Shown here: positions 7,305 to 31,213 of the stretch, in pieces
How positions within the stretch are numbered: the stretch's first letter is position 1
Layout: the number at the start of each line of letters is the position of its first letter
Source: Halorussus sp. MSC15.2
GTDB taxonomy: Archaea; Halobacteriota; Halobacteria; Halobacteriales; Haladaptataceae
Length of the DNA stretch: 64,000 nt
Assembly (NCBI RefSeq): GCF_010747475.1
Contig: NZ_VSLZ01000006.1
Span: 124,001 to 188,000, forward strand
Direction: 5' to 3'
Made by a program: the position numbers and the translations under genes
Notes under the pieces: model-generated
What the model saw: the letters and a program-made list of their open reading frames with translations, nothing else
Told to the model about the DNA's origin: nothing
The model's database searches: none

Positions 7305-7937
7305 AGACAGGCATCTACGAGAGCCTTGTATAATTGTGCTACGATTCCACCATACAGGAGGTAGATGAGAACGAGGCAAATGAGCATCTGAGGACAGACA
7401 AACAGACCCTCACCGATGAATCACGTATCGAAGGCCCTTCTCGATGAGTGGAAGGTCGTTCGTCTGCCGAACAATACTATTCCCTTGAGGACACAATCGT
7501 GCAGTATGCAACGTGGACAACTGACCGAGTTCGCGCTGAACGAGGTCGTTCAGCAGGCATTCAGTAGTGTCTAATTTGCGTTCCTGTTCGTACTGGCTTG
7601 TAGGTTCGACCACGATTTTCTCCGCTGGCTTCGATTAAATTGTAGTGGTATAGAATCGATACGCCCATGCTGTACAGACGTTCAAGAGACGCAATTGGGC
7701 CGAATCGAACCATTCTGTGACGACACGGACATCGCTTCTGCAGAGACGCACTCTTAGGGAACCTCTCAGTAGCCAACTACCGGATGGAGTGCCTGAAGTA
7801 TGATTGCAGCTTCGAACGCGGCGGTTGACCTAAAACACGGGTCATCAAACGGCTGGTCGTCCACGATATCCTAACGTGGCAACGGACTAATTATTAATGT
7901 CTCTAATATTTATGCAGTATAGAGTAAAGTATTGAAT
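7305..7937. other. Intergenic region with degraded coding traces and the GH3 promoter
   Basis: No intact gene is supported. On the minus strand at about 7561-7720, the segment SLERLYSMGVSILYHYNLIE followed by ENRGRTYKPVRTG resembles the wing part of a small winged-helix regulator, but its N-terminal part is not recognisable; low confidence. CAATACTA (minus-strand TAGTATTG) occurs at 7472-7479. Near the right end, an AT-rich stretch with TAATATTTATGC (about 7904-7915) is a good TATA box for the GH3 gene. Confidence 0.35.
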
Positions 7938-10556
7938 GTGGTGGAAGATAACACCAATCGGGAAGCGGTGGCAGAGGAGCGCGAAACGTCGCGTCGGACT
8001 TTCCTGCGGGCGACTGGGGCGCTAACCGTGGGCGGGTCGCTACTAGGAAGCGTAGACGTCGCCGCCGCGGATAGCGGCGACGCCGACCTCGAGAAACTCG
8101 TCGCCGAGATGACCCTCGATGAGAAGGTCAGTCGGACGCACGGCGCGGAGGGTGGTCCCGAGGGAATCGCGGGCTACCTTCAAGGCGTCGAGTCACCTGA
8201 CGTCCCTGGGATGGGGATGGCCGACGGCCCGCCGGGCGCTTCCCTCGGCGTCCCGACGACCGACTTCCCGCATCCCATCGCCACGGCGGCGACGTTCAAC
8301 CCCTCGCTCGTCTCCGAGCAGGGGCGGGCCATCGCGCGCGAAGCGAAATCCGGCGGCGTCGAAGTCCTGCTCGCGCCGTCGATGGACATGGCGCGAGTCC
8401 CGTTGCACAGTCGACACGGCGAGACGTACGGCGAAGACCCGCATCTCGCCGCCGAAATGGCGAAAGCCTACACCTCGGCAGTCCAGTCGGAGGGCGTCAT
8501 CGCGACGCTGAAACACTTCGTCTGCTACAACCAAGCGAGTACGACCGGCTCCGTCTACGACTACTTCTCGACGTCCGAGCACAACGTCGTCGTCAGTGAG
8601 CGCGCCCGCCGCGAACTCTACTACCAGCCGTTCAAGGCCGCCGTCACCGAGGGCGGCGCCGGCGCAGTCATGCCCGCGTACAACAAGATAAACGGGACGT
8701 ACAGCAGTGAACACCGCGAACTCCTGCGAGACGTTCTCAAGGACGAGTGGGGCTTCGACGGGTTCGTCGTCTCCGACTGGGGCGGCACCCACAGCACCGT
8801 CGAGGCGGCACAGAACGGTCTCGACATCGAGATGCCGTCCGCGAACTACTTCGGCGACACCCTCAAGAAGGCAGTCGAGAACGGCGACGTCGAGGAGAGC
8901 ACCGTCGACGAGATGGTGAAACGCGGTCTCACCGCACAGCAGGAAATCGGCGCGCTCGACGGTGAGCGCGACGGGTCGGAACCGGTCCGCGGGACGGACG
9001 AGCACTTCGAACTCGCCCAGCAGATAGCCGAAGAGGGCACCGTCCTCCTCAAGAACGAGGACGACCTCCTCCCGCTCGACCGCGACGGGGTCGACGAAAT
9101 CGCGCTCGTCGGCCCGAGTCCGACCGGCTTCAAGACGAGCATCGGCGGCAGCGACCACATCGACGCGATTCGTCGCGTCGACCCCGTCGAAGGTCTCGAC
9201 GCCGTCGCAGGCGACGACGTCACCGTCACGACCGTCTCGACCGACCGGTCCCGACTCGTCGAGACCGAACACCTCACGCCGGCGTCCGGCACCGGGAACG
9301 GACTCACCGCCGAGTACTTCACGAGCGACGACTGGTCGGGCAGTCCCGTCCGCACCCGCGTCGAAGACCAAGTCGACCTCACCGAGACCGAACTCTCGGA
9401 CATCGGCGCGAACTCCGTCCGCTGGACCGGCACGCTGACCGCCCCAACTTCGGGGACGTTCGGCGTCGCCGTCACCAGCCAAGGCCCCGGTCGCCTCTAC
9501 GTCGACGGCGAACCCCTCGTCCGGAGCGAGGGCGGCGGGTTCTTCGGTCCCAAGACCGAGGAAGCGAGCCTCGAACTCGAAGCCGGCCAGACCTACGACA
9601 TCCGCGTCGAAGCCGCCGGCGGCCCCGCTTCGCTGTCGTGGAACCCGCCGGAGGGGATTCGCGACGCGGTCGCCGCGGCGGAATCCGCCGACGTCGCCGT
9701 CGTCCTCGCGCAGACCGACACCTTCTACGGCGACGACCGCCACGAGTACGCCCTCCCCGGCAACCAGTCCGCACTCGTCGACGCGGTCCGAACGGCCAAC
9801 GAGGAAACCGTTCTCCTCCTCAACACCGAAGCCCCCGTCGAACTGCCGTGGGTCGAAGACGTTCCCGCGATTCTCCAACTCTGGTTCCCCGGACAGGAGG
9901 GTGGCCGCGCGCTCGCGAACATCCTCTTCGGCGAAGTTACCCCCTCCGGGAAGACCCCGGTTACGTTCGGCGCCGACCTCGAGGACTACCTGCCGCAGGA
10001 GATTACCTCCCTCCCCGACGGGGCACGCGGCTACCCCGGCATCGACGGCACCGCCTACTACGACGAAGGCGTCTTCGTCGGGTACCGGCACTTCGACGAA
10101 CACGACGTCGAGCCGGTCTTCCCCTTCGGCCACGGCGAGTCCTACACCGACTTCGAGTACGAGGACCTCCGCGTCACCCCGAAGGTCAAGAACGAGGCGA
10201 AACAGACGCTCAAGGCGAAACTCCGGGTCACGAACACCGGGGACCGTACTGGCGCGGAGACCGTCCAACTCTACGTTCACGACGTCGACGCCAGCGTCGA
10301 GCGGCCGCCGAAAGAACTCGAAGCCTTCGAGAAGGTCGCGCTCGACCCCGGCGAAACCGCGACCGTCACGTTCGAACTCGCCGACAGCGCCTTCGAGTTC
10401 TTCCACCCCGACGACGGCTGGACCGTCGAGACCGGGGCTTTCGAAGTTCTCGTCGGCAGTTCCTCCCGCGACATCCGCCTCCGAGACGGCGTCGAGGTCA
10501 TCGACCCGCGCTCGAACGGCGGCCGCGCCGACGCCCCCGGACACGCCGACGACTGA
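7938..10556 (+). CDS. Tat-exported family 3 glycoside hydrolase with PA14 insert
   Basis: An about 872-aa extracellular beta-glucosidase-like enzyme. The N-terminus has a Tat signal (SRRTFLRATGALTVGG, then an Ala-rich end). The GH3 N-terminal barrel follows (about 50-300), with the nucleophile Asp in GFVVSDWGGTH (about residue 280) and substrate-loop motifs GETYGEDPHL and LKHFVCYNQAS. Next come the GH3 C-terminal sandwich with an inserted PA14-like domain (about 455-575; LTAEYFTSDDWSGSPV) and a fibronectin-III-like end (about 750-860). Starts are ambiguous: TTG 7932, GTG 7938 or GTG 7941; GTG 7938 fits the upstream TATA box for a leaderless message. Likely substrates are beta-glucosides or oligosaccharides. 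It stands alone, without neighbouring sugar genes. Confidence 0.9.
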   Translation: MVEDNTNREAVAEERETSRRTFLRATGALTVGGSLLGSVDVAAADSGDADLEKLVAEMTLDEKVSRTHGAEGGPEGIAGYLQGVESPDVPGMGMADGPPGASLGVPTTDFPHPIATAATFNPSLVSEQGRAIAREAKSGGVEVLLAPSMDMARVPLHSRHGETYGEDPHLAAEMAKAYTSAVQSEGVIATLKHFVCYNQASTTGSVYDYFSTSEHNVVVSERARRELYYQPFKAAVTEGGAGAVMPAYNKINGTYSSEHRELLRDVLKDEWGFDGFVVSDWGGTHSTVEAAQNGLDIEMPSANYFGDTLKKAVENGDVEESTVDEMVKRGLTAQQEIGALDGERDGSEPVRGTDEHFELAQQIAEEGTVLLKNEDDLLPLDRDGVDEIALVGPSPTGFKTSIGGSDHIDAIRRVDPVEGLDAVAGDDVTVTTVSTDRSRLVETEHLTPASGTGNGLTAEYFTSDDWSGSPVRTRVEDQVDLTETELSDIGANSVRWTGTLTAPTSGTFGVAVTSQGPGRLYVDGEPLVRSEGGGFFGPKTEEASLELEAGQTYDIRVEAAGGPASLSWNPPEGIRDAVAAAESADVAVVLAQTDTFYGDDRHEYALPGNQSALVDAVRTANEETVLLLNTEAPVELPWVEDVPAILQLWFPGQEGGRALANILFGEVTPSGKTPVTFGADLEDYLPQEITSLPDGARGYPGIDGTAYYDEGVFVGYRHFDEHDVEPVFPFGHGESYTDFEYEDLRVTPKVKNEAKQTLKAKLRVTNTGDRTGAETVQLYVHDVDASVERPPKELEAFEKVALDPGETATVTFELADSAFEFFHPDDGWTVETGAFEVLVGSSSRDIRLRDGVEVIDPRSNGGRADAPGHADD

Positions 10557-19484: not shown

Positions 19485-19934
19485 TTAATTGACCATATTA
19501 GTGGTGACCGATTCAATGGCCGATTCACACACTTCTCCTAATGGATTCAATAGTTCTTCTTCAAATCGTGCCTCGGAGTTCTCCTCGCCTCTGTGAGAGT
19601 ACATTTTCTTTTCGTCGGTCCAGCATCCAAACGTTCCGTCAAATCTGCGCTGGGTTTCAAGAAACCGGACGGCATGTTGTATGACGCTGCGATATTCCGT
19701 GACGAGAGGAGTATCGGAGAGCTCTTTTAGGCATCTGGCACCTTGGTCAAGACTGTAGTCGGCGAACAACTGGAAGACTTTTCCGAGAGTGAGGAGATTT
19801 TCACTTTGTTCTTGATAATCGATGTCTTTCTCGTTCGTCTCGTCACGTAGCTCTTGCCAATTATCTATCAGCACTCGTGCGAGTATCCCACCAACAACTG
19901 TTGGATGATAGTAACAACGCCACGTTTTTTTCAC
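19485..19934 (-). CDS. C-terminal part of a split alpha-helical protein beside the lanthipeptide genes
   Basis: A 149-aa reading frame opening with GTG at 19934 (VKKTWRCYYHPTVVGGILAR). It continues with alpha-helical segments including VRFLETQRRFDGTFGCW. Together with the preceding 297-aa gene it reads like one protein of about 450 aa, similar to DUF6895-type helical-repeat proteins, in which a tyrosine-histidine segment followed by a G-I-L-A-R helix comes directly after the first part. The two overlap by GTGA beside a run of seven A. Either this is true translational coupling of two subunits or a one-base frameshift has split one gene. Function unknown. Confidence 0.55.
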   Translation of the reverse strand: MKKTWRCYYHPTVVGGILARVLIDNWQELRDETNEKDIDYQEQSENLLTLGKVFQLFADYSLDQGARCLKELSDTPLVTEYRSVIQHAVRFLETQRRFDGTFGCWTDEKKMYSHRGEENSEARFEEELLNPLGEVCESAIESVTTNMVN

Positions 19935-20824
19935 TTCCTTCCCAATTGTCTATGCCTGGTCCAACGAACTTTTTTCAATTCCTCCGTACTCTCAACTGAG
20001 AACGAAAGATAGCCGTCGTCGTCCAAATGATCGAACAGCCAACTGAAGGTAAAACGCGCCAGTCCTGGCGGCACCTGTCGCTGTAACACGCCACAAATCA
20101 GTAATTCTGCGACGAGGTCGGTGTGTCCCTCAATCATAAATCGAAGGATACCCGCCTGAAGCACGGAAGGGTGATTGTATTCAAGCGGTTCGTCCGGGAA
20201 TGCATCGCTTCCACTGCCGAGATTATGATAGTAAAGAAACTCATGCGTCAGTCCATATACATCATTTTGATTGACTTGCGCCATATTCAGTGACCGAGTG
20301 GCGTAGCCGTGGTCAAGTAACTGGTTAAGATCGAAGTCGTGACCGTCGTATCCATACATACGGCATAGATTCCACAGATCAAGTTGGCGAGCAGGGAGAC
20401 GGCTCTTTGACCACGTTTCTGGCCAGTCCAGAACATCGTCCAGAACGCGCTTTGCATTTGGGTCAAGTTCGTCTATTGTGGAGAGATATACCAGTGGATA
20501 CCCTAGCTTGTCGAGTTCGGTTGGCTTTCGTCGCAGTAGACGGTAGAACGATTCATCATTTGCTCGAGTCGCAAGCAAATTTTTGAGTTGCGGTGCTGCG
20601 GAGTCGTCATGCATGTCGGCGACGTACAAGTAATGTGCTGCCTCTGTGAGGGCTTTTCGACGAACCTCACGGGTTCCGGTGTCTGTCCAGTAGAATGGGT
20701 CGAATTGGTCGGCATTCTCGTTCATCCAGTGGTCAGTGTGTTCTTTGAATGTTTCCGCTCGGTCTACGACGTTGTTACAGGAAATCAGTTCAGTGGGAAC
20801 TGCTGCGTGTGTTTTGTCACTCAT
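19931..20824 (-). CDS. N-terminal part of a split alpha-helical protein (DUF6895-like) in the lanthipeptide locus
   Basis: A 297-aa protein, mostly helical, with conserved-looking blocks RQLDLWNLCRMYGYDGHDFD, YGLTHEFLYYHNLGSG and ELLICGVLQRQVPPGLARF. These resemble DUF6895-type (alpha/alpha-barrel-like) proteins. The ATG at 20824 (MSDKTHAAVP) is chosen over one three codons upstream, because it lies about 50 nt after a TTTAAGTA box that also stands before the lanthipeptide precursors. The gap of 111 bp from the cyclase gene and its own TATA box suggest independent transcription with shared control. A modifying, carrier or immunity role is possible but unproven. Confidence 0.6.
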   Translation of the reverse strand: MSDKTHAAVPTELISCNNVVDRAETFKEHTDHWMNENADQFDPFYWTDTGTREVRRKALTEAAHYLYVADMHDDSAAPQLKNLLATRANDESFYRLLRRKPTELDKLGYPLVYLSTIDELDPNAKRVLDDVLDWPETWSKSRLPARQLDLWNLCRMYGYDGHDFDLNQLLDHGYATRSLNMAQVNQNDVYGLTHEFLYYHNLGSGSDAFPDEPLEYNHPSVLQAGILRFMIEGHTDLVAELLICGVLQRQVPPGLARFTFSWLFDHLDDDGYLSFSVESTEELKKVRWTRHRQLGRK

Positions 20825-20935: not shown

Positions 20936-22144
20936 CTACTCAAAGCGAAGAACAGACGGTATTTCCGCGGGAGCCAACAGTCGGAGAAGCGTATATCCGA
21001 CTCCAGTCGTGCCCAAGAAAAACACAGGGTTATCAATGCCATCGATATGGCCCGGATCCACCCGATAAGAACCGGCCCGCCGTCGCCTCTCGATGGCGTC
21101 AGACGCCAACTCCCATGCCGCTTCGAGGTACTGCTCGTCATACATTCGCCCAAGATCGATAAGAAGATTAATCTGAGCGAACGTACCGTGACAAACCGAA
21201 TCCTCAGCTAGCAACTGCGGTTCGAGACCGTTTCGAACACGGTTCATGTCACGCTCAAGCGTCTCCGAGGTGCGGTATTGGAGACTACCAAGGCGCGCAT
21301 GACCAATACCAGCTAAACCATTACACCACCAGTGCGAGTAGTGTTTGATACCCACAAAGTTTGACTTCCAATTATGCTGGTGTTTCGAGTAGAATAGATT
21401 CTCGAACTCAAGGGCGTTCCTTGCGGCAACCCGGAATGCATCGCGTTGGGTGTGTTGATACAATCGATAGAGCGAATAACTGATGCCCGCGACTCCGTGA
21501 CCCATTCCCGTCGAGGTACTGAGAGTACCCTCCTTTCGACTCGTATCCCACAACTTGTAGTCCGCCCACTTGTCGTACCTGCTATCAAGTAGATGTTCGC
21601 CACATAGAATCGCTTTATCCAACGCCTCAGAGTTATCCGAGTGCTCCCAGTGACGCAGTAATCCAGTAACGGTGCCCGCAGCACCGAGCAACATATCGTA
21701 TTGGTCATCGTCCTCAATGATTTCTTTAGACAGTTCGGAGACGAGGTCTGCAGCTCGATTCCGATATCGTTGGTTGTCAGTGAGTTCCGAGAGTAAGTCT
21801 AGTCCGTAAACTAACGACCCAACACCCGCTCCAGCACCGATGTATGCGGTGTCGACTAGTTCTTCTTCGTCCCTATCAAAGATGAAATCTACCGCCTGTT
21901 CTGCTTTTTCACGGTATATTTCGTCTTCAAAGTATTGGTACATCGCTGCAAAGTAGAGAGCGATTCCGATTTGTCCAGAGTAAAGACCGTTCCGAGTCTT
22001 TAAGTTCAGGCCATCAAGGGAGGACATAAACCCAACTCGGCCAGTTGTGCCATCTTCGAACGTGACTCCTGTCCGTTCGACATCTTCGACTATCGACTTT
22101 ACTTCGCAGCGAATGTCTTCCGCTTGAGTGAATTGTTCAGTCAT
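20936..22144 (-). CDS. LanC-like lanthionine cyclase (detached LanM C-terminal domain)
   Basis: A 402-aa LanC-like alpha/alpha barrel. The zinc ligands are visible: Cys in HWWCNGLAG (about residue 274) and the adjacent Cys-His in VCHGTFAQ (about 318-319). The catalytic-site motif GMGHGVAGIS (about 213-222) matches the LanM cyclase GxxHGxAG block. Repeated inner-helix motifs are also present (GLYSGQIGIALYF; GAGAGVGSLVYGL; LLGAAGTVTGLL). It catalyses addition of Cys thiols to dehydrated Ser/Thr to form (methyl)lanthionine. In standard class II systems this domain is fused to the dehydratase. Here it starts as a separate gene overlapping the dehydratase stop by ATGA, so equimolar synthesis and a two-subunit enzyme are likely. 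Confidence 0.88.
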   Translation of the reverse strand: MTEQFTQAEDIRCEVKSIVEDVERTGVTFEDGTTGRVGFMSSLDGLNLKTRNGLYSGQIGIALYFAAMYQYFEDEIYREKAEQAVDFIFDRDEEELVDTAYIGAGAGVGSLVYGLDLLSELTDNQRYRNRAADLVSELSKEIIEDDDQYDMLLGAAGTVTGLLRHWEHSDNSEALDKAILCGEHLLDSRYDKWADYKLWDTSRKEGTLSTSTGMGHGVAGISYSLYRLYQHTQRDAFRVAARNALEFENLFYSKHQHNWKSNFVGIKHYSHWWCNGLAGIGHARLGSLQYRTSETLERDMNRVRNGLEPQLLAEDSVCHGTFAQINLLIDLGRMYDEQYLEAAWELASDAIERRRRAGSYRVDPGHIDGIDNPVFFLGTTGVGYTLLRLLAPAEIPSVLRFE

Positions 22145-24108
22145 ATTTTTCCCTCCGGATGTGGTTTCCGCTCACCATTCAGTTCGCTCAAACACGCTCG
22201 AATCAACCCGACCTGCTGTCGCTTGTCGCGTTCGCATAAATCCTCAATTCGGTCCATAAATCGCTCCACGCCCGTTTTTTCGGTCAGTGCTGAGAGTATC
22301 TTCTCGTCGTCGAAGTACAGTCCGGGGTCGTCCGAGTATACTGTAAATTTCGGGATGTCGCCCCGATGGAGGGCCTCACGCTCGGCTTTGATTATTTCAT
22401 CCCATAGCGTTGGACTAAGTTCCGGCATTTTCGTCTCACGTCTAACCACCGGTGAGTCTGGGCGTGTCGAGAGAACCTCTCGAATTTTATAGCTGTAGAG
22501 TGCGCCACTCCGGAGATATTTCGGTGTCGTAAGTGCCTTCAGAACTAAGCTATATACTCTTGAATTACGGAGAAGAACTCTCGTCTGGAGGCTGTCGAAC
22601 TGGTCCGAAACGAGATCCGTCACGCGGTCGCTCGCGCCTTTGATAGCATCATACGTCGCCTCGAAACCATCTGCGATTTCGTCAACGAACTGGCTCGGCG
22701 GTGCAGGCTTCCCAGACAATGTCGGGAAGTTCTTTTCCCGCGATCCCACAGGGGTATGATATTCAATGTCGATTGCGTCGGTATTAACATCTTTCCACGA
22801 GATGTGTTGGTTTCGTGCTTCTCGCCCATCGATTCCAGCTATCCCAGAAGTATCGTCAGGAATCGCGTCGTGAGGGAGCGCTCCAATACCAATAACGCTA
22901 TTATTCATAATATGACGACGGAGCTTCTCGTTCATTTTCCGCTGAGGTTTATCAACGGGTGTACTGTTCATTTCAAGTATCGTCTCGGGATCCACCAGAA
23001 CAGGAGAATTATCTGTAGCGATTAGATTCTCGAAGTGGCAGTCAGTGACATTCAACACGTAAAGAACACACAGTAGTGCTCCTGCTCCGCGATAATACTG
23101 TTCGATGGTCTCGATTTCCGAATGGTCCGCCTGCTCAACTTTTTCTATCCACCCGTAGTCGGGTCTGACCAGTGTCGCTGGCGTCCTTAATTCAGGCACA
23201 TCATCAAATGTCTCGTACACCCAAGTCTCGAAGTCGTACAGACGGTTCTCTGGGTCGATGCTCCGTGGCTTGTACACGACTTCGTTTCCAGTGTTGAACT
23301 CAACGAGCAGTACCTGACTCCCCCCTGAATGTAAATCTCCTTTCCCAGAAATCCCGACAACTTGCTCACCATCGCCAATGTTGACAACACGGTTGAGTTC
23401 TTGTATGTCGTCATTCAATCGAGACAGGAACTGTGTGACCATGGCCCGCCACTGGCGACTCACAATGGTGATGAGCTTCGCAGCCATCGGAAACTCCTCG
23501 AAGAACGATGCTGCTCGTTTCTCAAAGAACGCAGTAACGTACGCATCGTACCATTCCGTTGATTCCGAGGAGAGTTGGTCGTTTTCGAGTACCTCCGAAT
23601 CTGTCTCGTAGATGTAGGAGATATAATCGATATGGAGTGCTTGTGCAGCGACTTCGGCGAGTTGATCAAGCAACAACCACTCGAAGTCTTGTAAACCATC
23701 TTCAGATACTCGTTTAAGACTCATCTCTGCAGTGAGACGACTGCGACTCTCTTTGACGATTGGCCAGAGAATATGTTCGAACGGGACATCTTTGCCGTCG
23801 TAAGGTGTTGTTTGGGTCGTATCGACTGTAGAAAGTGTCTCGACAATGCCGGTGAACTCTGTAATCCATTGGGGTAAATCCTCGTCGTCTGGCCACCGGT
23901 CGAACTGGACGTACGAATCGATGTTGTCGGAGTCGAGTTTTGATTCCTTCCAGAGAATATCGACTTGATTACTGTCAATATCATCGAAGGGTGATGACTG
24001 TTTGTCTGAATCAGTCGGTGCCGTTTCACGCTGAGACGCGTGTCCGTTCTGCACTCGGTCGTGTAGTAATTCTCCCGTCGCTGCAATGTGATAATAATCC
24101 GGATTCAT
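22141..24108 (-). CDS. Class II lanthipeptide dehydratase (detached LanM N-terminal domain)
   Basis: A 655-aa protein matching the DUF4135 dehydratase domain of LanM enzymes. Key motifs are GDLHSGGSQVLLVEF and VVYKPRSID (about 258-284), the lipid-kinase-like lysine/arginine site; TDCHFENLIA (about 355-364) and VLVDPETI (about 370-377), the catalytic and metal-binding acidic residues; and LSPTLWDEIIKAEREALHRG (near residues 555-575). It phosphorylates and eliminates Ser/Thr in the precursor core using ATP. The ATG at 24108 is preferred because it overlaps the stop of the 32-residue reading frame before it (24105-24108). The protein ends exactly at the usual domain junction, so the split is clean rather than a truncation. 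Confidence 0.88.
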   Translation of the reverse strand: MNPDYYHIAATGELLHDRVQNGHASQRETAPTDSDKQSSPFDDIDSNQVDILWKESKLDSDNIDSYVQFDRWPDDEDLPQWITEFTGIVETLSTVDTTQTTPYDGKDVPFEHILWPIVKESRSRLTAEMSLKRVSEDGLQDFEWLLLDQLAEVAAQALHIDYISYIYETDSEVLENDQLSSESTEWYDAYVTAFFEKRAASFFEEFPMAAKLITIVSRQWRAMVTQFLSRLNDDIQELNRVVNIGDGEQVVGISGKGDLHSGGSQVLLVEFNTGNEVVYKPRSIDPENRLYDFETWVYETFDDVPELRTPATLVRPDYGWIEKVEQADHSEIETIEQYYRGAGALLCVLYVLNVTDCHFENLIATDNSPVLVDPETILEMNSTPVDKPQRKMNEKLRRHIMNNSVIGIGALPHDAIPDDTSGIAGIDGREARNQHISWKDVNTDAIDIEYHTPVGSREKNFPTLSGKPAPPSQFVDEIADGFEATYDAIKGASDRVTDLVSDQFDSLQTRVLLRNSRVYSLVLKALTTPKYLRSGALYSYKIREVLSTRPDSPVVRRETKMPELSPTLWDEIIKAEREALHRGDIPKFTVYSDDPGLYFDDEKILSALTEKTGVERFMDRIEDLCERDKRQQVGLIRACLSELNGERKPHPEGKI

Positions 24109-24203
24109 TGTTTGGACTCTCCTGCAAGAACCCGTCCACAGATGGATGACGGACAAAACTCCGTCGCCTTTGTCGTCGCGAACAGGGTTTCGGCGTCGCT
24201 CAT
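24105..24203 (-). CDS. 32-residue Cys-containing peptide coupled to the dehydratase
   Basis: ATG at 24203, TGA at 24105-24107, four-base overlap with the dehydratase start. The peptide begins MSDAETLFATT and its second half contains EFCPSSICGRVLAG, with two Cys flanking two Ser, a pattern compatible with a small lanthionine ring. It lacks the SVDQFE leader block of the two confirmed precursors. It could be a third, short-leader precursor, a leader-like accessory peptide, or a translational-coupling reading frame. Coding is supported by the overlap and composition, not by a recognised family. Confidence 0.5.
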   Translation of the reverse strand: MSDAETLFATTKATEFCPSSICGRVLAGESKQ

Positions 24204-24327
24204 AGTATTACAGGCTTGCTGGGCGTCGTACTTGTTGTCTATACGACTGTATTGAAAGGCATCGTGACTGTGTTTTATCTGTATTAAAATTACGTGAGGG
24301 AAGGTTCGAATTATTGGCTTGGTTAAT

Positions 24328-24468
24328 TCAGCTGGAGTCGGAACCGACGAAGCACGTGAGTGAGAAGCACTCTGCTTGCTGCACGTTGTCTTCGAGGGCT
24401 TCGTCGAGGTCGCGTTTGTGTTTGTCTTCAAACTGGTCAACCGACGTGGTCTGTGGTTTAGCGGACAT
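24328..24468 (-). CDS. Lanthipeptide precursor 2
   Basis: A 46-aa precursor starting MSAKPQTTSVDQFEDKH. The acidic leader contains SVDQFE, shared with precursor 1, and ends in EALEDN. The core contains AECFSLTCF followed by VGSDSS, giving Ser, Thr and two Cys in the motif C-x-S-L-T-C-F. The ring could join the Ser or Thr to either Cys. There is no double-Gly cleavage site typical of many class II leaders. It lies 14 bp after precursor 1 and about 120 bp before the 32-aa frame, all on the same strand as the split synthetase. Confidence 0.85.
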   Translation of the reverse strand: MSAKPQTTSVDQFEDKHKRDLDEALEDNVQQAECFSLTCFVGSDSS

Positions 24469-24482
24469 TGTTTTGGATGAAT

Positions 24483-24620
24483 TTAGTTGGAGTCGGAGTC
24501 CCAGAAGCACGTGAGGGAGCCACATGCCTTCATGGGTGCGGTGTCGTCAAATTCGTTGTTGATGTCGCGGCTGTGCTTGGCTTCGAATTGGTCAACCGAC
24601 TTGGGTGTGTCAGATTGCAT
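24483..24620 (-). CDS. Lanthipeptide precursor 1
   Basis: A 45-aa precursor beginning MQSDTPKSVDQFEAKHSRD. The leader is acidic and helical and shares SVDQFE-x-KH-x-RD with precursor 2. The core reads KACGSLTCFWDSDSN, again with the invariant C-x-S-L-T-C-F and a SDS tail. Two different cores under one enzyme set suggest either a two-peptide product or diversification. No GG processing motif is seen. It is the first gene after the promoter near 24683. Confidence 0.85.
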   Translation of the reverse strand: MQSDTPKSVDQFEAKHSRDINNEFDDTAPMKACGSLTCFWDSDSN

Positions 24621-25259: not shown

Positions 25260-25979
25260 CTAAATCTCTTCAATGAACGACTTAATGTGGTCGTAGACTA
25301 CACCTTCATCAGTTCGTTCAATTTTCGTTTGAGGGATATTCTCCCAATTAGTCATATCCTTTGGACAGACGTTGCCATCACCTGCCGCAAACACCGTAAC
25401 TGTCCCCTCACTCGACCGGCATAATAGCTCCAGTTTGTCGAATTTGGACTGGAATGACCCTTCAACAGGCTGAAATACGAGTCGCTGGACAAACGGGGTA
25501 TCACAGGTAGCAGCCGCTTCGACGCACTCAAAGTCTCTTGGAGTGAACCCCAACTCAATCATAGACTTAAAAACCGCTTGCAGTTGCGGTGCCGTGACAT
25601 CAATGTGTCGCTCGTAGGTCGTGGTCTCTTCTTCTGTGAAAATTTTTATCGAAGAGATTACATCAATACTACCGACAGTCTCAGGGGTCTCCCATGGAAT
25701 CGTAATGGTCGAAGTCCGCGTCTCTGTGAGTTCGGTTTCAAACGTGGCATCAGAAACAAGAGTAAATCGGTCAATAGTGGCCCGCTGAAAGTCATCTCCA
25801 GTTCGATACGGAACGTTGAGCGCGAGGGCAATTTCTTTAATTTCCCATTGACAGTTCGTCCCCCGGAACGTGACATCGATGTCCGTACTTTCCCCGATGA
25901 CGACGTAATTTTGTGAGAGACTGATTTCGATTGTACCCTCACTGACGCTGTGGCTTGTAAGAACGTTGTTTTCGTCCAT
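25260..25979 (-). CDS. Spo0M/arrestin-like protein
   Basis: A 239-aa protein with an N-terminal beta-sandwich (VSEGTIEISLSQNYVVIGES, then DIDVTFRGTNCQWEIKEIAL) and a C-terminal half with LQAVFKSMIELGFTPRDFEC and VQRLVFQPVEGSFQSKFDKL. These match the two arrestin-like sheets of the sporulation-control protein Spo0M family, found in bacteria and haloarchaea and of unclear biochemical role. It lies between the ABC transporter genes and the precursors on the same strand. A scaffold or stress-response role is possible; a direct link to the peptide is not shown. Confidence 0.75.
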   Translation of the reverse strand: MDENNVLTSHSVSEGTIEISLSQNYVVIGESTDIDVTFRGTNCQWEIKEIALALNVPYRTGDDFQRATIDRFTLVSDATFETELTETRTSTITIPWETPETVGSIDVISSIKIFTEEETTTYERHIDVTAPQLQAVFKSMIELGFTPRDFECVEAAATCDTPFVQRLVFQPVEGSFQSKFDKLELLCRSSEGTVTVFAAGDGNVCPKDMTNWENIPQTKIERTDEGVVYDHIKSFIEEI

Positions 25980-26113: not shown

Positions 26114-26932
26114 TTAGTAGTGGCCGAGCAATCCGTTCTGTCGCGCTCTAATTCCTGCCCGATAGAAACTGTAGTAGCCGATTGTGAAATAGACGACGCT
26201 TGTAGCGACAAGAAGACCAATTTCAGTTGCCGGGAATTCCCAGAGTCGAATACTGTCTTCCATCGCTCTTCGAGTCAAATAACTACCGTGGGTGACTGGA
26301 AGAAGCTTCAGGACTTCTAAATCTCCAGCTGGAGCGGCGATTAGTCCAACGAATGCAAACTGGACAATTTGAAACAAGTTCTCGATGCGTTTGTATACGA
26401 GAGCAAGCCCAGCAAACAAGAATCCAATACCAACGATTGACATCAAAGTAAGCGCTAACAATGGAAGTATCGTTAGCGGGTCAACAGTCAGCCAACGGCC
26501 TGTTGTAGCCATCATGAACACCAGTAGTCCTGCCCCCCAAAGGAAACTGAAAGCGATGTTAACGATTGATTTGACGGCCATGACAGTCCGGAATCCGTGA
26601 GGGGACATGAACAACCGCTCTAGAGTACCCCACTGTGCCTCACGCGTAACGTTCCACGCGAGTCCGGAGTAGGACGTAATCGAGAGGGTAAAAAGGAAGA
26701 ATCCAACAATAATTCCGTTGAGAGAATCGGTTAATGAAGGGCCTGCAATAGCCTTTCCGCCAAAGAAGACCAACGAAAAGAACGCTACAAGCGTCAAGAA
26801 CAGACTCGCTGTATTAACGGGATAACGAACGAAAAGAACGTACTGTTTATAAAAAACAACTTTCACCAAGGCTAGCAAGGACGGACTATCATCGTCAGCT
26901 AGTTCCGTCAGCTTGCTACTGTCAGTCGCCAA
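26114..26932 (-). CDS. ABC-2 type permease, partner of the adjacent ATPase
   Basis: A 272-aa protein with six predicted helices. Examples are LFLTLVAFFSLVFFGGKAI (near 45-63), IVNIAFSFLWGAGLLVFMMA, LLALTLMSIVGIGFLFAGL and ATSVVYFTIGYYSFYRAGI. An EARWGTLERLFMSPHGF-type cytosolic loop between helices two and three (seen as EAQWGTLERLFMSP) is typical of ABC-2 exporters. The start appears to be TTG at 26932, overlapping the ATPase gene by 11 bp; TTG is rare in haloarchaea. It probably exports or extrudes a peptide or drug-like substrate and may give immunity. Confidence 0.8.
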   Translation of the reverse strand: MATDSSKLTELADDDSPSLLALVKVVFYKQYVLFVRYPVNTASLFLTLVAFFSLVFFGGKAIAGPSLTDSLNGIIVGFFLFTLSITSYSGLAWNVTREAQWGTLERLFMSPHGFRTVMAVKSIVNIAFSFLWGAGLLVFMMATTGRWLTVDPLTILPLLALTLMSIVGIGFLFAGLALVYKRIENLFQIVQFAFVGLIAAPAGDLEVLKLLPVTHGSYLTRRAMEDSIRLWEFPATEIGLLVATSVVYFTIGYYSFYRAGIRARQNGLLGHY

Positions 26933-27932
26933 TATTGCTCACCTCCTGTACGGCTCTTGAATCGTCTGTCGGTCGCGGATCTGTTTCGGTAAGTCGAAGG
27001 AAGACATCCTCTAAGTCCGGTTCAACAGAGGTAATCTCCCGAATGTCCTGCTGGTCATCCTGCAGGATGTTCACTGCATCATATATTTCGTTCCCTTCAA
27101 CAACGGTGAATGTCGCGGTAAGTCGATTATCGGTTTCTGTGATGTCCGCAGCTACTGTCTGTTCCAGGCGCTGTCGGACGCGATTGGCAACTGGACGTTC
27201 GAGAGTGATTTCGTATTGACGTGTGTGGAATAGGTCCAACAGCGCGTCAACCTCGTCATACTCGATGATAGAGCCATCGTTGAGTATTAAAACACTGTCA
27301 CACACCGTTTCGATGACATCCATGTCGTGACTACAGAGCACAATCGTTACGTCCTCGTTGGCAAGTCTATTGAGTTCGGTACGGAGTTCAAGCGACGTCT
27401 CAATGTCGAGTCCGAGAGTCGGCTCGTCCATGAAAACGACATCAACGTCACGCGCTAAGGTGGAGGCCAGAGAGACTTTCTGTTTCATTCCACGAGAAAG
27501 ATCATTGACTGGCGTGTCGGCGTAGTCGTCAAGATCGAATTGTTTCAACAGTGTCTCGTGCCGGTCGCGTAAATCACTCGGATTATCCCCACCAATGCCC
27601 GCAAAAAACGAGAGATTTTCCTGCACCGTGAGTTTCCAGTAGATATTTCGTGCACCTTCAAGTATCGCACCTACGTTTTCATACGCGTAATTCGGTTGTT
27701 CATGAACGTCTCGTCCCGTGATTTCAACATCTCCTGCATCAGGAAGTATCAAACCCAGCATTGACTTAATCGTCGTTGTCTTTCCTGCCCCGTTCGGGCC
27801 AAGTATGCCGACAACGGTACCACGCTCTATTTCGAATGATATATCATCGATGGCAGTAACAGCAGATTCACCGTCTCCGAATGTTTTTTTCAACCCTTCG
27901 ACGCGGATTGCCGGCGGTTCATCTGTTTTCAT
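26922..27932 (-). CDS. ABC transporter ATPase
   Basis: A 336-aa ATP-binding subunit. Walker A GPNGAGKTTTIK (about 43-54), signature LSRGMKQKVSLA (about 145-156), Walker B VVFMDEPTLGL (about 166-176) and switch His in LCSHD are all intact. The C-terminal extension (about 220-336) is an accessory domain seen in ABC-2 exporters. It is coupled to the downstream permease. The locus context (minus-strand block ending in lanthipeptide genes) makes export or self-protection a reasonable guess. Confidence 0.88.
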   Translation of the reverse strand: MKTDEPPAIRVEGLKKTFGDGESAVTAIDDISFEIERGTVVGILGPNGAGKTTTIKSMLGLILPDAGDVEITGRDVHEQPNYAYENVGAILEGARNIYWKLTVQENLSFFAGIGGDNPSDLRDRHETLLKQFDLDDYADTPVNDLSRGMKQKVSLASTLARDVDVVFMDEPTLGLDIETSLELRTELNRLANEDVTIVLCSHDMDVIETVCDSVLILNDGSIIEYDEVDALLDLFHTRQYEITLERPVANRVRQRLEQTVAADITETDNRLTATFTVVEGNEIYDAVNILQDDQQDIREITSVEPDLEDVFLRLTETDPRPTDDSRAVQEVSNIGD

Positions 27933-28195: not shown

Positions 28196-29845
28196 TTATT
28201 GGACTTCTGCTCGACGACGGAGCACTGCGGCACCGAACAAGACGAGGCTCACGCCAACGAACGCGAGTGGGACGCCTGCTTCAATACTCCCTGTTGTCGA
28301 GCCGATGAAATCGAGTGGCACAGCACTGTTGAGCGGTCCGACGTACCAAATCATTAGGTACACGATTTCGAACAACCACGTAGACCGACTCCAGATTCCC
28401 GTCGCAATGGCTAGTGACGGAGCAAACAAGACCCCGCCCGCATACCCGACAAGTAGTTCTAGTTGACCGGCGCCGACAAACAATACGAACAGACCACCAC
28501 TGATACTCGCGGCGACGGCGACACCCGCAAGCCACTCTGCTATGAGCTGTCTATTCGCATATTTTGACGACAGCACCAAGTTCGTCATTCGATGCTTCAC
28601 CGTCCGCACGCCCATGCCCGACCAGATGAATATCGGCCACACGAACGCAAGTGGGAGGACAATTTGGCGAGCAGGCGCGACCGCCGCATCTGTTGACCCA
28701 CCAGTCGTAAGCATAAGAATTGGACTCCCAGCAAGAGCGACTGCACCAACGTACCACCACCAAGGTTGCCCTCTAAGCGCAAGTCGAACCTCCGCAGCGA
28801 CGAGTCGCCCAAAACCACCAGCGTCACGATCAGTCACAGATGTGAGCGACATCGAATCAATTGACGGGGGTTCGGTGTCATCTTCGATAGGAGCATCTTC
28901 TTGGCCGACTCCTGGCACGACTGCGACGAGTCGCGCAAGCCATCCGGATCCGTCCGATGATTCGTGTGACGGCGTTCGGTCAAACAACACCGTCGTGGCG
29001 AGCACGATGGTGATAGCAGGCACGAACAGGCCGATGCGTTGTGCATAAATCCAGAGTGGCCAACTACCCCCAGCGTAGCGGAACGTCTTGTCACCATCGA
29101 GTGTTCCAATCGATGGCACCCCACCGCCGTAGTTCGGGGCTTCAGTGAGTAACGCGTCAACCGTCAGATCGTATATTGCTATATGTCCCATGATGTCACC
29201 CGCCCTCGCTTGGAGTGGAATCGCCCCGGGCATCGAATTCTGTGTCGCAGCTAATGCAGCGAGCGAGAACGTCGCGAGTATCACATACAAGATATTGCCG
29301 AGTGTGCCGCTCAACCGATCTACCGTCTCGAAAAAGAGAGCGACAGCACCAACGAGGGCACAGACTGGAAGCGCGAACGCGAATAGCGGTGCTAACAGTG
29401 GGAGTGGATTCGTCGGTCCAACGCCGTGAATTGCGTGATTGGCGATGGTTGCAAATCCGAGCGTGAGGAGAATCACCACGCCGAGAGCAACGTTGCTGAG
29501 CCACTTTCCAGCGAGGTATGTCCTCTCTGAAACCGGAGTGCTGGCAACTAACTGGTCAACGTCGTATAGCCGGTCACGTTCAAGCGTATTCTTCATCAGA
29601 TAGAACCCGCCAAATAGGACGACTGCCGACCCAGTCAATCCGGCCTTCAATCCGATGAATGCCGCTGTGTTCACCCCGTGATAATTCGTCGTGGTACTCC
29701 CGTCGGTGACTTGATAGGCCAGTTCGATTTGTCCGACGTTGACGAGAAACCCGATATACGCGATAATCGCAAGAACAACCAACAGGCGGCGCGACCGGAC
29801 TCGTTGCAGAAAATCTGCCCGTGCGATGTTGTAGAGTCGATGCAT
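28196..29845 (-). CDS. Large ABC-2 type permease
   Basis: A 549-aa membrane protein with two sets of about six helices separated by a polar stretch (residues about 325-380, rich in Asp/Ser). The N-terminal set includes RLLVVLAIIAYIGFLVNVG, and the loop MKNTLERDRLYDVDQLVAST is typical of haloarchaeal ABC-2 permeases. The ATG at 29845 begins one base after the upstream ATPase stop, so the two are one operon. The substrate is unknown. The size suggests two fused permease halves serving one ATPase dimer. Confidence 0.8.
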   Translation of the reverse strand: MHRLYNIARADFLQRVRSRRLLVVLAIIAYIGFLVNVGQIELAYQVTDGSTTTNYHGVNTAAFIGLKAGLTGSAVVLFGGFYLMKNTLERDRLYDVDQLVASTPVSERTYLAGKWLSNVALGVVILLTLGFATIANHAIHGVGPTNPLPLLAPLFAFALPVCALVGAVALFFETVDRLSGTLGNILYVILATFSLAALAATQNSMPGAIPLQARAGDIMGHIAIYDLTVDALLTEAPNYGGGVPSIGTLDGDKTFRYAGGSWPLWIYAQRIGLFVPAITIVLATTVLFDRTPSHESSDGSGWLARLVAVVPGVGQEDAPIEDDTEPPSIDSMSLTSVTDRDAGGFGRLVAAEVRLALRGQPWWWYVGAVALAGSPILMLTTGGSTDAAVAPARQIVLPLAFVWPIFIWSGMGVRTVKHRMTNLVLSSKYANRQLIAEWLAGVAVAASISGGLFVLFVGAGQLELLVGYAGGVLFAPSLAIATGIWSRSTWLFEIVYLMIWYVGPLNSAVPLDFIGSTTGSIEAGVPLAFVGVSLVLFGAAVLRRRAEVQ

Positions 29846-29846
29846 C

Positions 29847-30722
29847 TCAGACACCGTCCTGTTGATCGATTGTCTTGAGATATGCATCTTCGAGGGTCGG
29901 GGAGACCTGAGTCGCGTCATCTGTCGGTGGCGTCACTGCGATTAGTCTGACTTTGACGCCGTCCGAACGCTGGACAGTACTGCATATCTGGTACTGGTTG
30001 CGAAGCGTAGATAATTCGTCTCGTGGAACGAGACACTCGTAAACCTCTCCAGCGACTCGGCCAATGAGTTCCTCGACGTTCGCATGGGTCAGTAGTTGGC
30101 CATCATCGAGGATGGCGATTTTGTTCGCGGTTGCTTCCACGTCTGGAACAATGTGTGTTGAAAGAATGACAACACGGTCGGCAGCGGTATTAGATAAAGC
30201 ACTTCGCAACCGAACTCGCTCTTCGGGGTCTAATCCGACCGTCGGTTCGTCAGCAATGAGAAGGTCCGGGTCGTTGAGCAACGCTTGCGCAATACCCACG
30301 CGTTGGCGCATCCCTCCAGAGAACGTCTTGAGCTTTCGGTTTCGGACGTCACTCAGATTTGTGAGTGTAATCATCTCGTCGATGCGTGCGCTTGCAGTCT
30401 CGTTATCGAGGCCGCGCAGTGCGGCCATATATTCAAGGAACTCTTCGAGTGTTAGGTCGGGATACACGCCGAAATCTTGAGGTAGATAACCGAGAATAGA
30501 CCGAACAGCATTAGGCGATGCGACTATGTCCGTGCCTTCCCAATAGGCAGTGCCGGTTGTTGGTTTCATAACCGTCGTAAGGATATTCATGAGGGTCGAT
30601 TTTCCGGCACCGTTTGGTCCTAGTAATCCGTGAATCCCCTCGTTTAGTTCGAGGGAGACGTCACGGATACCCCATGTGTCCTCTGCGTACTTTTTCCCAA
30701 GTTCTTCAGTACGTAACTTCAT
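29847..30722 (-). CDS. ABC transporter ATPase, second system
   Basis: A 291-aa ATPase with Walker A GPNGAGKSTLMN (about 35-46), Q-loop YLPQDFG, signature FSGGMRQRVGIA and Walker B LLIADEPTVGL. The ATG at 30722 is preferred; upstream in-frame residues are AT-driven aromatic sequence without conservation. It pairs with the 549-aa permease. The presence of two complete transporters in line with the lanthipeptide genes resembles export plus immunity arrangements, but neither carries a C39 peptidase domain. Confidence 0.88.
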   Translation of the reverse strand: MKLRTEELGKKYAEDTWGIRDVSLELNEGIHGLLGPNGAGKSTLMNILTTVMKPTTGTAYWEGTDIVASPNAVRSILGYLPQDFGVYPDLTLEEFLEYMAALRGLDNETASARIDEMITLTNLSDVRNRKLKTFSGGMRQRVGIAQALLNDPDLLIADEPTVGLDPEERVRLRSALSNTAADRVVILSTHIVPDVEATANKIAILDDGQLLTHANVEELIGRVAGEVYECLVPRDELSTLRNQYQICSTVQRSDGVKVRLIAVTPPTDDATQVSPTLEDAYLKTIDQQDGV

Positions 30723-31213
30723 GGCGGATTGTATCAGTACCACGTACAAATATTTTTTGAGCATGAATTTGGTGTAAGAGAATATATAAAAATACCATTC
30801 AAAAGCCACTAGATTTGGAGTTATAGGATTAATATTATATTTGGCCTAACGGTCATAACTCAAACTAAAGAATAACCAAAACGAATATTTAATCCAATAG
30901 AATGTAAAGAAACAGAGGCCCAAACCCACACTCTAATCATTATAGCTAACAGTCCCACCATTCAAGATTTATTGATGGTTAAGAATATGGGGTTTTGTAT
31001 GAAGATGCGGGAGAATGTATAGTTTCAATAAGCCAGCGCTGGTTTGACGATTTATCTTCTGCTCAGGCAACGTTCGACGGGATGTTTTGGCAACTGATTA
31101 ATCTGGATGTCATCGAAGTAATACGAAACCGCTCGGTGCGGTCATCGAGTGGCGACTCAAGCAATTTTGGGAAAATACGTTCTGTCCACGCTGCGACTAT
31201 CAGAGCATTGTGA
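30723..31213. other. AT-rich spacer with decayed coding traces
   Basis: No intact gene. Around 31147-31200 on the plus strand, one frame reads VIEWRLKQFWENTFCPRCDY, suggesting a zinc-ribbon scrap of the kind seen at transposase N-termini. It has no continuation. TATA-like sequence for the minus-strand ATPase at 30722 is present near 30830. Confidence 0.3.

Follow-up and report, generated by a model that had tools for sequence, protein, structure and literature searches.

Organization of the locus

A single bifunctional chain is part of the definition of class II lanthipeptide synthetases (LanM). Here, we describe a locus of Halorussus sp. MSC15.2 at which a LanM-type dehydratase and a LanC-type cyclase are encoded by two separate, overlapping genes. 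Within the window, i.e., the whole stretch of 64,000 nucleotides that was analyzed, the following features make up the core of this locus:

24483..24620, minus strand: precursor peptide gene 1, LanA-like, 45 amino acids (MQSDTPKSVDQFEAKHSRDINNEFDDTAPMKACGSLTCFWDSDSN), with leader and core motif
24328..24468, minus strand: precursor peptide gene 2, LanA-like, 46 amino acids (MSAKPQTTSVDQFEDKHKRDLDEALEDNVQQAECFSLTCFVGSDSS), with leader and core as in precursor 1
24105..24203, minus strand: open reading frame of 32 amino acids (MSDAETLFATTKATEFCPSSICGRVLAGESKQ) with a C-x-x-S-I-C stretch, the TGA of which overlaps the dehydratase ATG
22141..24108, minus strand: stand-alone LanM-type dehydratase subunit, 655 amino acids, ATG at 24108 (PF13575, TIGR03897)
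20936..22144, minus strand: stand-alone LanC-type cyclase subunit, 402 amino acids, ATG at 22144 (PF05147, TIGR03897)

The original prediction had described a dehydratase gene that ends at the domain junction and overlaps a cyclase gene by ATGA, and our analysis bears out each of these elements. All motifs named for the dehydratase (VYKPRS, TDCHFENL, and LVDPET) and for the cyclase (HG, WCNG, and CHG) were found, and the TGA stop of the former overlaps the ATG start of the latter at the predicted minus-strand positions. In Pfam, DUF4135/PF13575 matches the 655-residue protein (E=4.9e-91) and LANC_like/PF05147 the 402-residue protein (E=2e-51). The NCBIfam model for LanM, TIGR03897 (932 positions), is divided between the two, with positions 2-526 in the dehydratase and 592-932 in the cyclase, and the interval between them corresponds to the linker of fused haloarchaeal LanMs (median of 30 amino acids). 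Thus, both domains are complete, and the chain is interrupted in the interdomain linker. The window holds two open reading frames where a LanM has one polypeptide, and its dehydratase matches PF13575 and TIGR03897 only, not a LanB-type dehydratase. For dehydratase and cyclase alike, LicM2 and CylM are the nearest solved structures by sequence, and an AlphaFold2 model of the dehydratase with a modest predicted local distance difference test score (pLDDT 65.5) likewise retrieves CylM and LicM2 as top structures. A scan of the window for bacterial-type promoters, with a model unsuited to archaea, gave nothing above chance.

Conservation of the split in haloarchaea

A six-frame search with PF13575 across 391 Halobacteria genomes, to which family-level searches added further loci, identified 31 positive genomes. 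While most open frames exceeded 1000 amino acids, a few were 650-700 amino acids long, and 8 short dehydratase frames, spread over five genomes from three families, are immediately followed by a LanC gene. The split that the original prediction proposed to look for in other Halobacteria is therefore present in 7 further pairs. The split loci and their junctions are as follows (L003 and L038 are counted as one locus):

Window (G000): ATGA
L003/L038 (G151, Halopiger djelfimassiliensis): ATGA
L033 (G124): TAA, followed by an in-frame ATG 9 nucleotides on
L034 (G124): ATGA
L035 (G346): ATGA
L036 (G346): TGATG
L041 (G346): TAATG
L093 (G400): TGATG

Two further DUF4135 dehydratases, L039 and L040, are devoid of a cyclase, have several catalytic residues changed, and fall outside the clade of split dehydratases described below. 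L040 lies near a gene of the DUF6895 family, which is also found next to the window pair.

It was considered that the split might be a sequencing error or a recent frameshift or nonsense lesion in a fused LanM, particularly as the DUF6895 gene of the same operon is frameshifted in A-rich sequence, which shows that lesions or homopolymer errors are present in the vicinity. The conservation of the split makes this explanation extremely improbable. The nearest relative, from Halopiger djelfimassiliensis, shares both genes and their ATGA overlap at 53% identity, and is thus split likewise rather than fused. The four differing stop/start arrangements among the 8 loci, which belong to one old clade, rule out one shared sequencing artifact. 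Furthermore, the ratios of nonsynonymous to synonymous substitution rates between L033 and L041, the only pair close enough to be measured, are 0.18 for the dehydratase and 0.21 for the cyclase, indicating that both halves are maintained by purifying selection. The split is an old, conserved two-part form and not a broken gene, in line with the evolved two-subunit synthetase that the original prediction had favored over a frameshift; the pair would be expected to form a working enzyme.

Catalytic sites and phylogeny

The window dehydratase was mapped onto lacticin 481 synthetase (LctM, L082), using what we take to be the LctM residue numbering, which agrees with the L082 sequence. It holds equivalents of K159, D242, H244, N247, D259, E261, and R399, with a conservative change to Ser at the position of T405, and retains the P-loop D-x-H. 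All of these residues other than the one at T405 are invariant in 8/8 split dehydratases. Their counterparts in CylM have been assigned to phosphorylation and phosphate elimination (PMC4550811). As a separate observation, the catalytic D-x-H reads D-x-Q in many fused haloarchaeal LanMs (e.g., L061), while the His is kept in all split ones.

In the window cyclase, the active-site HG is conserved and the zinc ligands are of the Cys-Cys-His kind (WWCNG, CHG), in place of the Cys-Cys-Cys site of the haloarchaeal CCG type. The same C-C-H ligands are found in 7 of the 8 split cyclases, the remaining one being L093 (G400, 7496..8683, minus strand), from the same genus as the window, in which they read R-C-D next to an intact dehydratase. 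In contrast, C-C-H does not occur among 52 cyclase domains of fused haloarchaeal LanMs; 41 are C-C-C (CCG-type) and 11 are degenerate. Each zinc state is clustered on the tree, which points to one or few evolutionary events instead of dozens of independent ones. Since the genome of the window also encodes a fused LanM (G000:C3, 1092 amino acids; L061) with a C-C-C zinc site, the split and the fused kind coexist. In two genomes of one genus, we also noted fused, divergent LanMs that occur as pairs encoded on opposite strands (L095 in G124 and L098 in G438); their zinc sites are degenerate throughout.

A tree was built from 67 dehydratase domains, with bacterial LanMs serving as the outgroup. 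In it, the 8 split dehydratases form one clade (support 99/99, 100% of bootstraps), and the haloarchaeal dehydratases form one group against the bacterial ones (99/99). For the cyclases, the split group had been broken by long bacterial rows in one earlier tree and had fallen into two parts in another (a single clade was not rejected by the approximately unbiased test, p=0.42). In the final cyclase tree, to which L093 and more fused rows were added and from which divergent rows were left out, the split cyclases lie on one side of a branch (88/77, 90% of bootstraps). The distance matrices of dehydratases and cyclases correlate (r=0.96), although linked inheritance alone would give the same correlation.

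Among haloarchaeal LanMs, the split clade is a deep one and has preserved the CHG motif of bacterial LanMs, whereas the fused ones are CCG or degenerate. This is what would be seen if two proteins were the older state, and the fused haloarchaeal LanMs had arisen through fusion or separate acquisition from bacteria. However, the bacterial LanMs in our sample, where coverage for split LanMs consisted of plasmid records, are fused, apart from one lone dehydratase (Spirosoma), and a single fission is for this reason the simplest history of the split. As the grouping of all haloarchaeal dehydratases against bacteria also speaks against the reversed direction, we consider the latter unlikely.

Precursor peptides and a probable two-subunit synthetase

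Both window precursors share the leader (S/A)V(D/E)QFExKHxRD and the core C-x3-[ST]-C with two precursors of the Halopiger locus. As is characteristic of LanM, the putative cognate precursors, with a leader and a Ser/Thr- and Cys-containing core, adjoin the synthetase genes, as far as can be judged from sequence. The tandem precursor genes, which sit immediately upstream of the synthetase genes, extend to 24620, which fits the end that the original prediction had set for the region. Precursors adjoin 7/8 split loci: there is one each at L033 and L041 (MSATSADELVEELDEKHT...CxSLSCW) as well as at L034 and L035, while the two predicted at L093 have a single Cys apiece (WCSITA and WCTITATKE). The 32-residue open reading frame at 24105..24203 could represent a third precursor or a coupling frame, an uncertain and weak assignment; the Halopiger locus showed none like it.

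In archalan alpha (GCGFTCSPFSSW), the rings, as read from published data, join Cys2-Thr5 and Cys6-Ser10 (PMC10105419). The window precursor core ACGSLTCFWDSDSN resembles the archalan alpha core, and its C-x3-[ST]-C-x3-S arrangement suggests, by analogy, rings in which Cys precedes Ser/Thr. The cores of archalan alpha, archalan beta, and sallan known from Halorussus salinus are encoded in G406, a genome of the same genus as the window, in keeping with Halorussus as the probable genus.

Taken together, it is highly likely from the sequence that the window pair constitutes a two-subunit class II lanthipeptide synthetase, corresponding to a LanM divided at the interdomain linker. From its gene arrangement and homologs, we infer how the subunits would associate and act, which rings would form, and how the product would be exported and serve its host. 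The overlapping genes are probably translationally coupled. By homology, the dehydratase would bind the leader of both precursors (SVDQFExKHxRD), and its kinase fold would phosphorylate Ser/Thr of the short C-terminal core with ATP and then eliminate the phosphate, after which the cyclase, with its Cys-Cys-His zinc site, would join the thiols of the core Cys to the dehydro residues. A stand-alone dehydratase is chemically plausible, since the dehydratase domains of CylM, HalM2, and NukM, when excised, were reported to be sufficient for dehydration (PMC10676384).

Several points weigh against this reading. The related CcaM requires fused domains and fails in trans (PMC10676384), the support for the cyclase clade is only moderate, the zinc loss in L093 means that some split systems may not cyclize normally, and at L036, where a precursor was looked for, none was found.

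Some of these observations raise the question of whether the two proteins form one enzyme at all. The dehydratase might make dehydro-peptides, with the cyclase being accessory, decayed, or serving another LanM, such as the fused G000:C3. The existence of the lone haloarchaeal dehydratases L039 and L040 and the loss of zinc ligands in L093 agree with such an arrangement, but the former two have changed catalytic residues and sit outside the split clade. Moreover, the full cyclase site is kept at 7/8 split loci, the genes stay adjacent, and the precursor Cys are placed for ring formation. We therefore regard two separately acting proteins as quite improbable and retain the two-subunit synthetase.

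Neighboring genes

Besides the synthetase and precursor genes, the window encodes the following neighbors:

19485..20824, minus strand: DUF6895 gene, frameshifted (its longer fragment matches PF21836, E=3e-24)
25260..25979, minus strand: Spo0M/arrestin-like protein, 239 amino acids (PF07070, E=1e-19; synteny)
26114..27932, minus strand: ATP-binding cassette (ABC) transporter 1 (permease 26114..26932, ATPase 26922..27932; Pfam)
28196..30809, minus strand: ABC transporter 2 (permease 28196..29920, ATPase 29847..30809; Pfam)

The DUF6895 and Spo0M-like genes occur at 5/5 type A split loci, i.e., the window plus L038, L033, L041, and L093, the four split loci most closely related to it, and at 0/35 fused loci tested. 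Both ABC transporters are found at 4/5 type A split loci; transporter 1 is also located near many fused LanMs, and transporter 2 at other DUF6895 loci. The likely role of both transporters is export of the product or protection of the producer. DUF6895 is missing from the other split branch (L034-L036), where an S9 peptidase gene lies nearby; given how common the S9 family is, this is only a hint.

The title of a 2026 ACS Catal. paper (doi 10.1021/acscatal.5c08590) describes DUF6895 as a family of epimerases that modify lasso peptides, and the DUF6895 protein may add D-residues in type A loci. The copy in the window is broken: its two fragments, which lie in different frames, share 61% and 63% identity with the Halopiger protein, which is intact, and the frameshift falls in A-rich sequence between ~19929 and ~19969, as either a true lesion or a homopolymer error. 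At related loci, the gene is intact. An AlphaFold2 model of DUF6895 (pLDDT 90) matched no solved structure at E<0.001, the best partial matches being terpene cyclases with a template modeling score of ~0.4. DUF6895 had also been considered as a second cyclase because of its all-helical nature and a QxxxDGxFGxWTDE stretch; this idea was dropped in view of the epimerase report.

The family is rare, with 12 genes in 9/391 genomes, and five of the 12 adjoin split or lone dehydratases. DUF6895 loci without LanM (L086-L092) often have the same ABC transporter families, some together with an S9 peptidase gene. A motif scan for precursors at L086-L092 found none. Such loci may be markers of unknown peptide-modification clusters.

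Comparison with known systems

Walker et al. described classes II-IV as single proteins and mentioned only a split LanB (PMC7268733). A general statement has been made that the domains can at times reside in different proteins (PMC11251773), and a few truncated LanMs mentioned in earlier surveys (PMC10105419) could be split ones. Haloferax volcanii has served as the host for other archaeal lanthipeptides (PMC12144867). No split or stand-alone LanM was described in the archaeal lanthipeptide literature that we searched, the Castro et al. 2021 survey lying outside that search. It is thus likely, though not established, that a split class II form is undescribed so far.

A broader proposal, for which we see about even chances, is that these enzymes constitute an undescribed subclass: an obligate two-subunit, CHG-type LanM that arose by one haloarchaeal fission and stayed split while the fused enzymes moved to CCG, one branch being linked to an epimerase of the DUF6895 family as well as to a Spo0M-like protein. 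It would predict lanthipeptides with D-residues and, through the DUF6895 link, an unexplored type of archaeal peptide. With a natural, conserved split, dehydration and cyclization could each be studied and titrated on their own, with no need to cut the protein artificially, and peptide engineering would gain separable parts. Furthermore, because CCG enzymes have been tied to substrate promiscuity in bacteria (PMC10027976), the sharp correspondence of split with CHG and of fused with CCG enzymes within one archaeal class makes a link between architecture and substrate tolerance testable.

Compared with class II LanMs (LctM, CylM, LicM2, and HalM2), the window pair has the same domain order and motifs, a kinase-fold dehydratase, a CHG zinc cyclase, and an adjacent LanA, but consists of two polypeptides from overlapping genes in place of one chain. 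It belongs to the LanM lineage and would work like a LanM, and we classify it as a class II variant with two subunits. With the haloarchaeal LanMs of the CCG type, among them the archalan enzymes of Halorussus salinus, it shares the dehydratase lineage, host class, and short precursors, and the core is similar; those enzymes, however, are fused with Cys-Cys-Cys sites, whereas the split enzymes have Cys-Cys-His sites and a clade of their own.

In class I, dehydratase (LanB) and cyclase (LanC) are also separate proteins, and the cyclase has a CHG zinc site. However, LanB is an unrelated tRNA-dependent dehydratase, while the window dehydratase is DUF4135 and its cyclase is nearest to LanM C-domains. 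The split LanBs of pinensin and thiopeptide pathways provide a precedent for a lanthipeptide dehydratase on two chains (PMC7268733), although the cut there lies inside the class I dehydratase and not, as in the window, between a class II dehydratase and its cyclase. Finally, the reported lasso-peptide epimerase belongs to the same Pfam family as the DUF6895 protein of the window, and both adjoin a peptide-modifying cluster; the window copy, in contrast, lies beside a split LanM, is frameshifted, and has a putative epimerase role.

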